A DNA stretch of 37,651 bases from Bacteroidales bacterium (GTDB lineage Bacteria; Bacteroidota; Bacteroidia; Bacteroidales; DTU049). The notes beneath the pieces are model-generated. The model made no database searches. It was not told the DNA's origin and saw only the letters and a list, made by a program, of their open reading frames with translations. The stretch is from contig JAOAAK010000037.1 of NCBI GenBank assembly GCA_026418905.1, positions 1 to 37,651 of the forward strand. The letters run 5' to 3'. The position numbers were made by a program, and so were the translations under genes. The first letter of the stretch is position 1, and each line of letters begins with the position of its first letter. This document shows, in pieces, positions 15,833-36,366 of the stretch.

Positions 15833-16183
15833 TTTTTTCTAAATCAAGAATATTTAATTCGAAATCATTTTGAGCATAAAATAAGTACGACTTCAGTTGT
15901 TGTTTGTAGAATTTATTAGCCTTTCTCATCTTTACTTCTAGCTGACTCTTCGATAAACATTCATTTTGAATAATTTGTCATGATGACATTGTGAGCTGTT
16001 ACAAAAAGGTAGAGCAAAATATAAGTTAATGATATTCACTTTCATGCTCCTTAAATTTTATTGGTGTTTAAAATCAATTTATTATTTGTTTGCTATTATT
16101 TGTTTTTTTAGCATTACTCATCATCCGTATTCCTAAATCCTTAATTATTTTATGACTTATTATGCCATTGAAAGTTGATATCT
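15833..16183. other. 351-base convergent gap without a confident gene
   Basis: AT-rich sequence between the ends of prmC and the OmpA-like gene. It holds the 3' arm of the inverted repeat at the prmC stop, a perfect palindromic TGTCA-TGA-TGACA element at 15976-15988, and a 35-codon plus-strand reading frame (16029-16136) for a very hydrophobic peptide. A 46-codon minus frame (15789-15929) overlaps the end of prmC. None has a recognisable TAnnTTTG promoter or homologue I can name, so I call no gene. Confidence 0.5.
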
Positions 16184-18481
16184 TTAACCGGCTCGGATGT
16201 ACAGGACTTCTTGGCTTCCAGAGGGTTCGTTGGTTTCAAAAAAAAGCAAAACCATCTTAAGAGCCCGAAGTTTTAGTAAATCAACACAAATTTTCATTTC
16301 AACCTTTTCGGATGGTAAGATCTCAGATTTAGAAAGATAAAATTCGACCCATGAATGAGACGATAGAATTTTTTTTATGACTAAAGGAGAAGTTCCCACA
16401 TTTTGTATGGTAATGGTCTTACAAGGTATATTTTCAGTTCCAGACCACACGAGATCATGAGTAGAAAAGCTGGCCACAGGAAATTTTTGTTGCTCAGTTG
16501 AAAGGGAAAACGTAGATTGATAAGAAGAAATCTGAATACGCCGTTCCTTAGAGGCCTTAATGCTATATATGGAATTGCGAGCATCATGAGGATTATCACT
16601 TACAGTAGGATCTGCCAATACTTCCCCTACAGGTTTCTCGATGATTCGCAATTTAGGAGTATCGCTTTCCAAGTATGATTGAAAAAAGCCTTGTTGATAC
16701 TTTTTCATAAAATTAATTAAGCTTTTAATACGCCTTTTAGCTAAATTCAGGTTGTATTCTGTCGTAGTAAGAGGACTCGTAAAACCTTGAATAGTAATAG
16801 TAACGCGACTTCCGTTTTGCAAATCTTCACGCATAAGCTGCAGAAATTCAATCAATCGTTCGTATCCTCCTACAACATCAAGGGTAAAAAATCTTTCCAT
16901 GTCTTCCAGCGCCTTTTGTTTTTGGTCTCCTTCTAGCCCTTTGCTGTACTCTTTCTTGAATTTTTCGATCAGTGAAAGATAGAATTCATAAGTTTCGTCG
17001 TATGTTGTCTGTGTAAGAGAATCTTTGCTTCTGGGATCTGGATAATCATTATGAAAATAAAGATTGATCGGCAAGAGAGATTGAATTTTGTTTTTCAAGG
17101 TCATGTTAATCGTATCAATAGATGGTCTTTCAAATGTATCCTTCTTAACTAGAGTAGGTTTTATTTCAAAAGTATAAATGTCGTAGCAACATGTTTCACC
17201 TTTAATAGCATAAGAGCCCTTGCGATTAGAAGTTAAATATCCTTCTTGATTACCCTGGGTAAATTTGAAATATACGTCGTTGGAAGGACTGTTAATGGGT
17301 CGCCCAACATTTACAGGTTTCTCCCACCGACTGTAACTCCCTTTTGAACGAAAAATATCGAATCCTCCCAAACCAATCCAATAGTCACTTGAAAAATACA
17401 ATGTGTTGGAAAGCGTGTCATAAAATGGGCTCATTTCATTACCAGGAGAGTTTATGAAACTCCCAGCATTGATAGGTTGTCCATACTGAGAATTTTTTCG
17501 AACTACATACCAAATGTCTAATCCACCATAACCGCCAGGACGATCACTAGAGAAAAAAATAATTTCCTGACCGAGAGAATCTTTAGCAAAAGCTGGTTGA
17601 GTAGTCGTATAGCCAGGAAGATTAAAAGGAAGCTTTATTGGTTTTGTCCAAGTATTGTCCGATTGCTTTTGAGATGAGTATAAATCACACCTAAACTGAT
17701 TTTTTTCTCCGAAATAACATATATTAAACCATGCTTCAGTTCCAAAAGGATTAAAAACCAAGTTGGCGGTATGATTTTTTTTATCATTGAAGGGATAATT
17801 TAATTTTTGTGGTCGTTTGTACCCAAATCCTCCGAAGTTAGAAAAATAAATCGCTGAACCAAAATCATTTTCAAATAAGAATTCGGATGTTTTTTCATAA
17901 ACAGGCCTGATGGAAGTGAAAAAAAGTGTGTCTTCTCTTTGAAATGCACCAAATTCGCTGTAAGGTGTGTTTACTGGCATAGGTAGATGATCTATCTCGA
18001 CGGAGGAATCTACGTTCTCCACCAATTTTAATAAATCAGCTTTGTTTGCGACATAGTTCTTTGATTTCTGAATCATAAATTCATCCTTACGAGAATCGTC
18101 TTTGACTAAAAAATATTCATAATAAGCTAGGGCTTCTTCATATTTTTCAAGAGAGCGACTAACTTCAGCAAGATCAAAGAAAAGACTAGGATAATAATTT
18201 TCCTTTCCCAGCCAGATGATTTGTTTAAAACATTCATATGCTTTGTCGTTTAAGGACAATTCTCGAGCAGATTTTCCTAAATAAAACCACGCATCTGACA
18301 TCATAGAGTCCTGTTGTACCAAATGAGAAAAAATAGTATAAGATTCAAAGTAATTGCCCTTTTCGTAAAAATTTTTTCCTGCATTAAACAAATCAGTGAT
18401 TTCCTGAGAATTTAGAAAAGCTGTACCTCCCAGCAGAGCATACAAAAAAAGACCTAAAAAAGCTCTCAAAAAATGGGGCAT
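16184..18481 (-). CDS. TPR / PD40 / OmpA-like protein of a T9SS type B cargo module
   Basis: The 765-residue protein has a signal peptide (1-25), TPR repeats (about 28-140), a beta-propeller of PD40-type repeats (about 185-440; FFSSDRPGGYGGLDIW, LYFSSDYWIGLGGFDIF, YLTSNRKGS), and an OmpA-like domain (about 560-650; GFTSPLTTTEYNLNLAKRRI to SKERRIQI). A C-terminal Ig-like domain resembling DUF1573/ASPM-type folds (about 665-765) follows. The Asp of the usual OmpA GHTD motif, which binds diaminopimelate, is Ser here, while the Arg in LAKRRI is kept, so peptidoglycan binding is uncertain. It overlaps the PorP/SprF gene by 16 bases. Such genes commonly accompany PorP/SprF and type B cargo genes and may anchor the complex in the periplasm. 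Confidence 0.85.
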   Translation of the reverse strand: MPHFLRAFLGLFLYALLGGTAFLNSQEITDLFNAGKNFYEKGNYFESYTIFSHLVQQDSMMSDAWFYLGKSARELSLNDKAYECFKQIIWLGKENYYPSLFFDLAEVSRSLEKYEEALAYYEYFLVKDDSRKDEFMIQKSKNYVANKADLLKLVENVDSSVEIDHLPMPVNTPYSEFGAFQREDTLFFTSIRPVYEKTSEFLFENDFGSAIYFSNFGGFGYKRPQKLNYPFNDKKNHTANLVFNPFGTEAWFNICYFGEKNQFRCDLYSSQKQSDNTWTKPIKLPFNLPGYTTTQPAFAKDSLGQEIIFFSSDRPGGYGGLDIWYVVRKNSQYGQPINAGSFINSPGNEMSPFYDTLSNTLYFSSDYWIGLGGFDIFRSKGSYSRWEKPVNVGRPINSPSNDVYFKFTQGNQEGYLTSNRKGSYAIKGETCCYDIYTFEIKPTLVKKDTFERPSIDTINMTLKNKIQSLLPINLYFHNDYPDPRSKDSLTQTTYDETYEFYLSLIEKFKKEYSKGLEGDQKQKALEDMERFFTLDVVGGYERLIEFLQLMREDLQNGSRVTITIQGFTSPLTTTEYNLNLAKRRIKSLINFMKKYQQGFFQSYLESDTPKLRIIEKPVGEVLADPTVSDNPHDARNSIYSIKASKERRIQISSYQSTFSLSTEQQKFPVASFSTHDLVWSGTENIPCKTITIQNVGTSPLVIKKILSSHSWVEFYLSKSEILPSEKVEMKICVDLLKLRALKMVLLFFETNEPSGSQEVLYIRAG

Positions 18482-33618: not shown

Positions 33619-35505
33619 TTATTTAACTTCCTCGTACTCTGCATCCGTTACATTGCTTTCATTAGAAGCATGGCTGCTAGAAGTAGTATGAGAAGTTTGT
33701 TGTTGGGTTGCACGATACATTTCTTCACTAGCAGCAGCCCATGCTGTATTGAGTTTCTTTATAGCGTTCTCTATTCCACTCAAATTTTCACTTTTGTGAG
33801 CTTCTTTAAGTTCGTTTAATGCTGCTTCAATGGCAGACTTTTTGTCAGCAGGAATTTTATCCCCATATTCTGCTAGTTGTTTTTCCGTAGTGTAAATAAG
33901 GCTATCTGCCTGGTTCATTTTGTCGATTTTTTCACGAAGTTTTCTATCAGCTTCTTCATTAGCTTTGGCTTCTTCTTTCATTCGACGTATTTCCTCTTCA
34001 GTAAGACCAGAGCTGGCTTCTATGCGAATATGTTGAGCCTTCCCTGTTGCTTTATCTTTTGCCGTCACATTTAAAATTCCATTAGCATCAATATCAAAAG
34101 TGACTTCAATTTGAGGAACACCTCGTGGTGCAGGAGGAATTCCATCTAAATGAAAACGCCCAATGGTCTTGTTTTGGCTAGCAAGAGGTCTTTCACCTTG
34201 GAGAACGTGTATTTCAACAGAAGTTTGATTATCTGCAGCTGTAGTAAAAACTTCAGTTTTCCTCGTTGGAATGGTTGTATTGGCTTCTATAAGTTTAGTC
34301 ATAACACCTCCGAGTGTCTCAATGCCCAAAGATATAGGAATTACATCCAATAACAATATATCTTTAACTTCACCAGTAAGCACACCTCCTTGTATGGCGG
34401 CACCTACAGCTACGACTTCATCTGGGTTAACTCCCTTACTGGGTTTCTTTCCGAAAAATTTTTCCACCACTTCCTGAATCTTAGGAACACGCGTAGATCC
34501 CCCCACCAGAATAACTTCATCGATGTCTGCAGGTGTAAGCTTTGCATCTTCGAGAGCTTTTCTACATGGCTCAATTGTTGCCTGAATAAGGTCATCAATA
34601 AGTTGCTCAAATTTAGCCCTTGTAAGAGTTTTTACAAGGTGACGAGGAACTCCATCAACCACTGCTATATAAGGAAGATTTATTTCTGTCGACATACTTG
34701 AAGATAATTCAATCTTAGCTTTTTCAGCTGCCTCTTTCAGACGCTGCAAAGCCATGGGATCTTTTCTCAGATCGACTCCTTCTTCCTTCTGAAATTCATT
34801 GGCAATCCAATCTATAATTCTTTGATCGAAATCATCTCCTCCCAGGTGAGTATTTCCGTTGGTAGACTTAACCTCGAAAACCCCATCGCCCAATTCTAAG
34901 ATAGAAATATCAAACGTGCCTCCTCCTAAGTCATAAACAGCTACTTTTAAGTTTTTGTGCTTCTTGTCTAATCCATATGCAAGTGCAGCAGCAGTTGGTT
35001 CATTGATAATACGACGAACTGTCAATCCAGCTATTTCCCCCGCTTCTTTCGTAGCTTGTCGTTGAGCATCATTAAAATATGCTGGTACAGTAATGACAGC
35101 CTCGGTCACTTCATGTCCCAAGTAATCTTCTGCTGTTTTTTTCATTTTTTGCAAAATCATAGCAGAGATCTCCTGAGGAGTATATAGCCTACCATCGATA
35201 TCAACTCGAGGGGTATTGTTGGGGCCACGCTTGACTGCATAAGGAACTCTTTTTATTTCTTCTTGAACCTCATCGTAGTCCCTTCCCATAAATCTTTTAA
35301 TGGAAAAAATAGTCTTTTTGGGATTTATAATAGCCTGTCGTTTGGCTGGATCACCGACTTTGATTTCGCCACTATCGGTAAATGCTACCATGCTGGGGGT
35401 AGTTCTTTTACCTTCACTGTTAGCTATCACAACAGGTTCATTACCTTCCATCACGGCCACACACGAATTGGTCGTTCCTAAATCTATTCCTATGATTTTT
35501 CCCAT
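33619..35505 (-). CDS. dnaK: Chaperone DnaK (Hsp70)
   Basis: ATG at 35505 gives 628 residues beginning [18 protein letters not shown]; in-frame sequence further upstream is non-homologous. The ATPase domain (about 1-380) shows [15 protein letters not shown] and [14 protein letters not shown]. The linker region reads [10 protein letters not shown] where DVTPLSLGIE is usual. The substrate-binding domain follows (about 390-500) with the C-terminal helical lid, and the tail ends DAEYEEVK. DnaK folds proteins with DnaJ and GrpE, whose genes are not in the window. No TAnnTTTG box is visible upstream; instead there is a triple TGNCA element at 35576-35596. The gene appears monocistronic. Confidence 0.98.
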
Positions 35506-35575
35506 ACAATTTTTTTGACCTTCGTAATCAATAAATATACCAGTTCTCCATTGAAAAAAAACAATAAAGAAAAAC

Positions 35576-35596
35576 TGCCAATATGACAGTCTGTCA
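35576..35596. promoter_or_regulatory. Phased triple TGNCA element between dnaK and the phoB-like gene
   Basis: TGCCA (35576-35580), TGACA (35584-35588) and TGTCA (35592-35596) are separated by exactly three bases each, an 8-base period. The two right-hand units form a perfect 6+1+6 palindrome. The element is 71 bases from the dnaK ATG and 78 from the response-regulator ATG. A regulator operator or an alternative promoter element for heat-shock control of dnaK is the inferred role. Confidence 0.45.
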
Positions 35597-35632: not shown

Positions 35633-35664
35633 TTGCATAACAACAACGCATTATTATAATTTTG
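35633..35664 (+). promoter_or_regulatory. Promoter of the PhoBR-like operon
   Basis: TTG (35633-35635), 21 bases, TATAATTTTG with the -7 box at 35657-35664, nine bases before ATG at 35674. A TTG start codon at 35662 lies inside the box. Confidence 0.55.
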
Positions 35665-35673
35665 AAAAAAAAC

Positions 35674-36366
35674 ATGGGAGAAGAAATAAGGGTTTTATTA
35701 GTTGATGATGAAGAAGACATACTCGAAATTATGGAGTACAATTTGAAAAAACATGGATTTGAAGTAGTTTGTGCCACCAATGGGGAAGATGCCATAAAAA
35801 AAGCCCAAGAATGGAATCCACACATCATTGTTTTAGATATTATGATGCCTAATATGGACGGAATCACTCTTTGCAAAGAATTACGCTCCTATGAAAAATT
35901 TAAAGATACTATCATTATCTTTCTCACAGCAAGAACAGAAGACTTCACGCAAATCATAGCACTTGAAAACGGAGGTGACGATTACATCACCAAGCCCATT
36001 ACACCACAAGTATTTGTTACGAAAATTAAGACTTATGCACGGCGCCTAATAGAAAATCAAGAAATAGAACAACAGAAAAAAACCATCCATGTGGGATCTT
36101 ATATCATAGATCTTGAAAAATACGAAATTATTCACAACCAAAAAACCTATTATTTACCAAGAAAAGAGTTCCAGATAGTAGTATTACTGGCAACTTCCCC
36201 CGGAAAAGTCTTTTCGCGAGACGAAATATACGCTCATGTCTGGGGCGATGAAGTCATCGTAGGCGAAAGAACCATTGATGTTCACATGCGAAAAATAAGA
36301 AAAAAACTGGGCAATGAATTCATCGAAACCATCAAAGGTGTTGGGTATAGAATTAAAAAAGTTTAA
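35674..36366 (+). CDS. OmpR/PhoB-family response regulator
   Basis: ATG at 35674 gives 230 residues. The receiver domain (1-125) has Asp11/Asp12, phospho-acceptor Asp55 in [13 protein letters not shown], the Thr of FLTAR and the Lys of ITKP. The winged-helix domain (about 140-230) has [27 protein letters not shown] and [10 protein letters not shown]. The downstream kinase gene overlaps its end, so they form a cognate pair. It resembles PhoB, but a phosphate role is not shown. Divergent from dnaK, with the TGNCA element between them. Confidence 0.94.

Follow-up and report, generated by a model that had tools for sequence, protein, structure and literature searches.

The dnaK gene of this Bacteroidales genome is preceded by three TGNCA pentamers, and the question raised by the locus is whether this array controls the gene and, if so, as what kind of site. 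The window is the whole stretch of DNA that was analysed, 37,651 nucleotides long. As the original prediction described, TGCCA (35576-35580), TGACA (35584-35588) and TGTCA (35592-35596) follow each other at an 8-base step; the dnaK strand reads TGACA-GAC-TGTCA-TAT-TGGCA. The array is also as rare as was claimed. The window has a single copy of the TGNCA triple, 100 shuffles gave no copy, and from base composition alone 0.0013 copies would be expected there and 0.075 across the genome. Of the TGNCA-N3-TGNCA doublet, the window contains 3 copies where 0.58 are expected, and 1 of 100 shuffles reached this number. Genome-wide, there is no clear excess of the doublet: it was found at 24 places, base composition predicts 22.9, and a reversed control pattern gave 11. 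The evidence therefore lies in where the sites stand, not in how many there are. A further exact doublet of the window, TGTCATGATGACA at 15976-15988, is flanked by a forward gene (end near 15833) and a reverse gene (end near 16185), and no promoter element was seen beside it.

The gap upstream of dnaK measures 168 bases, as first reported, if the divergent response regulator starts at the ATG at 35674. The vegetative TAnnTTTG -7 box is present before the divergent gene, and the exact box was not seen before dnaK, which agrees with the earlier reading. Because the box occurs only at the divergent gene, dnaK and the response regulator seem to use different promoters. A -24/-12 type element, unreported in the original prediction, stands before dnaK. 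The sigma-54 consensus is TGGCAC-N5-TTGC. Before dnaK, and downstream of the inner of the two pentamer pairs (Table 1), TGGTATATTTATTG matches sigma-54 -24/-12 promoters in its GG-N10-TG spacing; its -12 half is TTGA, without the classical GC dinucleotide.

Table 1. Features of the dnaK upstream region, in window coordinates
Feature	Position	Strand	Remarks
Inner palindrome TGTCA-TAT-TGGCA, putative upstream activating site	35576..35588	-	Distance to the -24 element 46 bp, in phase with relatives (25 + n x 10.5 bp)
Outer overlapping pair TGACA-GAC-TGTCA, middle pentamer in common	35584..35596	-	54 bp from the -24 element, ~2.5 bp off phase
Sigma-54-type -24/-12 element TGGTATATTTATTG of dnaK	35542-35529	-	TGG-N8-WTG, 37 bp before ATG
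dnaK, 628 aa	33619..35505	-	ORF, ATG at 35505; 80 relatives kept, 73-80% identical
TAnnTTTG -7 box TAATTTTG of the divergent response-regulator gene	35657..35664	+	Consensus from PMC9723704
Divergent PhoB-type response regulator	35674..36366	+	Pfam Response_reg and Trans_reg_C

Other chaperone genes of the same genome carry similar elements. Of the 24 doublets, 17 fall within ORFs, and the rest are found before chaperone genes (two overlapping at dnaK, two at hsp20 that are 31 bp apart, and one at htpG), in a terminator-like stem (one), and at window position 15976. The TGG-N8-WTG element precedes all seven genes checked, in an uncontrolled count, at -37 (dnaK), -62 (hsp20), -38 (htpG), -39 (groES), -45 (clpB, where it reads TGGTGA), -40 (grpE) and -44 (lon, checked in this genome only) relative to the ATG. 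The palindrome with 0-1 mismatch accompanies it in 5 of the 7 genes, likewise uncontrolled, 23-101 bp upstream of the promoter element (dnaK 46 and 54 bp, hsp20 70 and 101, htpG 23, clpB 26, grpE 25). The expectation that the doublet would stand before other chaperone genes thus held in part. The doublet is exact at hsp20, twice, and at htpG and has one mismatch at clpB and grpE, but at 0-1 mismatch it was not found before groES and lon. An inverted repeat, TTGGCATGT-N5-ACATGCCAA, lies 66-88 bp before clpB (L327) and overlaps the near-site of that gene.

Recurrence was followed in 80 DnaK loci of relatives (Bacteroidales, Chitinophaga, Mucilaginibacter and others) and in upstream regions from further genomes, with at most 30 loci per gene taken from searches of 59 genomes. 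Before dnaK, 29 of 107 upstreams, counting that of this genome, have the exact doublet, and none has the reversed control (3 of 110 loci were too short to count). With 0-1 mismatch in the last 250 bp before the gene, the count rises to 103/107, and seven rearranged controls gave 1-15/107. The exact doublet is also present before groES (19/29), htpG (8/25), hsp20 (17/30), clpB (12/30) and grpE (8/29), with a reversed control of 0 for each gene. At 0-1 mismatch, it precedes groES in 25/29 and htpG in 24/25 cases (control 3 each). One of 30 groES and 5 of 30 htpG entries were left out of the promoter and spacing set, as was 1 of 30 grpE entries from its own. The motif is therefore found both before other chaperone genes and before dnaK of relatives. 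The idea of a chaperone control element stands, since the site recurs before dnaK, groES, htpG, hsp20, clpB and grpE, but it is spread over the Bacteroidota and is not a property of one lineage.

The promoter element recurs with the site. The form TGGYAY-N6-TG is found within 170 bp of the ATG in 108 of 119 dnaK upstreams (124 entries minus 3 short, 1 duplicate and 1 start-less, the grpE stretch L145), in 24/25 htpG and in 23/29 groES upstreams, with reversed controls of 0. Before hsp20, it is present in 24/30 (control 0), and in this count and the strict counts of clpB and grpE the promoter with a site was chosen where present, which can favour matches. The looser TGGYA-N6-WTG precedes grpE in 23/29 (control 1) and clpB in 13/30 (control 0) cases. 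For the dnaK, groES, htpG and looser grpE and clpB counts, the promoter nearest to the gene was used, and all reversed controls were run on the same regions. The strict TGGYAY-N5-TTG is scarce (groES 3/29, clpB 2/30, grpE 2/29), and the groES element mostly has ATG in place of TTG. The classical GC at -12 is mostly missing: the consensus is TTGA at dnaK and hsp20 and ATGA at groES, and TTTGC occurs only at grpE. These gene-specific -12 halves look as if promoter strength were set per gene. Within the 80 dnaK loci, a palindrome lies upstream of 41 of 70 promoter-like sites inside dnaK promoters versus 7 of 138 outside them. A proximal box, TGNCATNTTTGCAT, was also seen by eye before many dnaK genes among the matches listed.

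The distance between the two elements is not random. It was taken from the start of the palindrome (TGNC-N5-GNCA) to the first T of TGG, over 13-130 bp. Distances cluster at 24-25, 35-36, 45-48, 54-58, 76-80, 86-91, 98-100 and 111 bp. They repeat every 10.5 bp, one turn of B-DNA, with a Rayleigh value of 57.2 (N=97, the other 21 of 118 sites lying beyond 130 bp), whereas 500 random sets, with the best of all periods taken for each, did not exceed 11.4. The value of 57.2 overstates independence because the sequences are related, and counting each gene-distance once gives a fairer figure of 18.2 (43 values). By gene, the value is 42.7 for dnaK (71 sites) and 9.4 for groES (12 sites, at 10.9 bp). 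The htpG sites are nearly all 23-25 bp from the promoter and are thus uninformative on a period. Adding hsp20, clpB and grpE lowers the value to 50.0 (129 sites), so these genes weaken the phase signal; hsp20 itself showed none in 18 sites, and its distances, among them 70 and 101 in this genome and five at 81, are poorly phased. In the dnaK series, the helical position at about 67 bp is nearly empty, with one site at 68.

These results bear on what the unit of the array is. Around the inner pair at dnaK, which is on phase, the dyad extends to ACTGTCA-TAT-TGGCAGT (35574-35590); the outer pair is off phase and shows no such extension. On sequence grounds, the 13-bp palindrome TGNCA-N3-TGNCA, rather than the triplet, is the working unit. 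The triplet was rejected as a unit, as the exact triple is limited to 2 of 107 dnaK upstreams (own and L033) and, at this locus, the outer pair does not keep the phase. The proposal that the pentamer array is a regulator site is accordingly kept for a palindromic pair and dropped for the third pentamer, which is out of phase, is rare elsewhere and could be a chance match. The inner palindrome is likely an upstream activating site, and the outer pair is probably accessory or incidental. The position of the inner palindrome 46 bp from the -24/-12 element, its recurrence and the 10.5-bp phasing together point to a sigma-54 enhancer-binding protein that would use it as its upstream activating site. 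Helical face matters in some sigma-54 enhancer systems (PMC7408454). Sites of enhancer-binding proteins are usually described 100-150 bp away (PMC7057263), so the many nearer sites count against such a reading, and a close, phased position would be unusual for these proteins.

A different regulator, for example one of the OmpR type acting on or beside the promoter, could also recognize the palindrome. The cop box of CusR/CopR-type regulators, TGACA-N3-TGTCA, has the same half-site layout, and the gene divergent to dnaK encodes a PhoB-like regulator. However, this neighbour was rejected as the binder: tblastn matched it in just 3 of 110 dnaK loci, this one and two others at ~30% identity, whereas the site recurs at six chaperone genes. 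The divergent response regulator is a neighbour and lies outside the element. In addition, sigma-54 promoters require an AAA+ enhancer-binding protein (PMC7057263), and the phased spacing fits one. Control by such another regulator is therefore judged unlikely. The palindrome may instead be the operator of a heat-shock repressor similar to HrcA or HspR, since it precedes several chaperone operons as CIRCE or HAIR would. CIRCE, bound by HrcA near dnaK and groES, has the consensus TTAGCACTC-N9-GAGTGCTAA, and HAIR, bound by HspR, has the consensus CTTGAGT-N7-ACTCAAG. The absence of both types of site, noted from the window, extends to 148 upstreams (119 dnaK and 29 groES), in which the best matches to these consensuses have at least 6/18 (CIRCE) and at least 4/14 (HAIR) mismatches. 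The palindrome also stands ahead of the promoter, at distances that keep the phase, rather than overlapping it, which makes a repressor operator distinctly improbable. A composition effect in an AT-rich intergenic gap would agree with the genome-wide doublet count, but the location of the sites, their conservation with zero reversed controls and the 10.5-bp phasing leave chance with almost no credibility.

A sigma-54 enhancer calls for both RpoN and an activator. This genome encodes one RpoN (G000:C45) with all three Pfam domains, and RpoN was found in 54 of 59 genomes, own included, and in 296 of 296 genomes of a phylum sample. The G015 and G027 assemblies are without RpoN and keep the promoter element and the near-site. 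The absence is taken as an assembly gap because RpoN occurs in 296/296 phylum genomes; genomes without RpoN were rejected as a negative control, as these two are presumed gaps and no real control was found.

Seven PF00158 matches are present in this genome. Five are weak (20-38 bits), two of them in ClpB-family genes, and two are strong (232 and 247 bits). One of the strong matches, encoded at G000:C3:181890-183125, is composed of an AAA+ domain and a C-terminal Fis-type HTH with no Pfam input domain, and is the candidate activator. The second, L135:1090-2268 (G000:C3, ~9 kb from hsp20), has a receiver and an AAA+ domain and no DNA-binding domain by Pfam. In the structural model of the candidate (mean pLDDT 77), a long helix and a linker of low confidence stand between the AAA+ domain and the HTH. 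PspF is likewise a standalone enhancer-binding protein without an input domain (PMC7057263), and the AAA+ domain of the candidate matches PspF structures. It differs from PspF in that NtrC1 and FleQ are its nearest solved structures, with PspF further down, and in that its regulon would be chaperones.

A full-length ortholog of the candidate is encoded in 57 of 59 genomes, own included. Its HTH is nearly invariant, reading GISERTL(Y/F)RK in 29 of 29 sequences that reach the C terminus, out of 30. The ortholog is the only match in G012, G013, G030 and G039 (99% completeness). Among the 14 chaperone upstreams of these four genomes, the promoter is present in 12, of which 8 also carry the palindrome at 0-1 mismatch; in G012, neither groES nor grpE has a site within 130 bp. 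The G045 assembly lacks the ortholog, yet promoter and near-site are kept. In 23 of 56 genomes having both, by a count made by eye from which contig breaks may hide more cases, the activator gene is co-directional with groES, 1.65-2.82 kb upstream. In this genome, the gene is followed by lptE, a TPR protein and secG. Unlike in those 23 genomes, groES-groEL is located apart from this activator-lptE-secG cluster (G000:C3, G000:C29). On these sequence data, the standalone AAA+/Fis-HTH protein is likely the binder of the palindrome. Taken as a whole, it is probable that the TGNCA pair is the enhancer, or upstream activating site, of a sigma-54 promoter for Bacteroidota chaperone genes and that this protein binds it.

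Sigma-54 control of Bacteroidota chaperones is already known (PMC9723704, PMC12316311). In Flavobacterium psychrophilum, a 2021 map of transcription start sites placed a -24/-12 motif (SM4) at the mapped starts of groESL, lon, dnaK, grpE-dnaJ, htpG and clpB (PMC9723704). The inducing conditions described were blood agar, high osmotic pressure, plasma and freshwater, and "heat shock" never occurs in the main text. The main text makes no mention of "upstream activating", "palindrom" or "inverted repeat" and no activator was seen to be assigned; the paper mentions three PF00158 proteins and suggests that co-expression clusters might correspond to distinct activators (PMC9723704). A gene for a sigma-54-dependent regulator, followed by lptE, lies a few locus numbers from groES-groEL (PMC9723704), and these locus numbers suggest the same neighbourhood as in the groES-linked genomes above. 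Predictions from 2025 found Bacteroidota sigma-54 promoters enriched for GroEL, IbpA, GroES, GrpE, DnaJ and DnaK, and for HSP90 in Bacteroidia (PMC12316311). That regulon covers the same class of genes and concerns the promoter. The SM4 promoters have the same -24/-12 element as the genes studied here, to which computation adds the palindrome, its phased spacing at dnaK and groES, its recurrence with the promoter element at several chaperone genes, and a candidate activator. No title or abstract start in the searched literature, with subscription journals mostly outside it, names the palindrome, the spacing rule or this activator. Relative to that literature, the site and the proposed activator at chaperone sigma-54 promoters appear to be new.

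In the proposed mechanism, a dimer of the standalone enhancer-binding protein, with its AAA+ domain, Fis-type HTH and no recognised input domain, would bind the palindrome, close to the -24/-12 element and on a preferred helical face relative to it. Binding would lead to activation, in which the AAA+ ring opens the sigma-54 closed complex through ATP hydrolysis. Heat or unfolded-protein stress would be the signal, possibly relayed by titration of chaperones or by an inhibitor working in trans, in the way that PspA controls PspF. PspF and HrpRS are both controlled in trans (PMC7057263). Both routes are guesses, and titration by chaperones would be natural for a chaperone regulon. A wider and more tentative possibility, held with less than even confidence, is a phylum-wide sigma-54 heat-shock system that replaces RpoH and HrcA. 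It would have one standalone activator, often encoded just before groESL, that acts through phased, short-range TGNCA-N3-TGNCA sites and is inhibited by chaperones or another trans-acting inhibitor. Little in the literature searched describes how the Bacteroidota, a major phylum in gut, soil and sea, turn on their chaperones. With a specific site, a rule for its spacing and one candidate activator, this question of chaperone control becomes testable.
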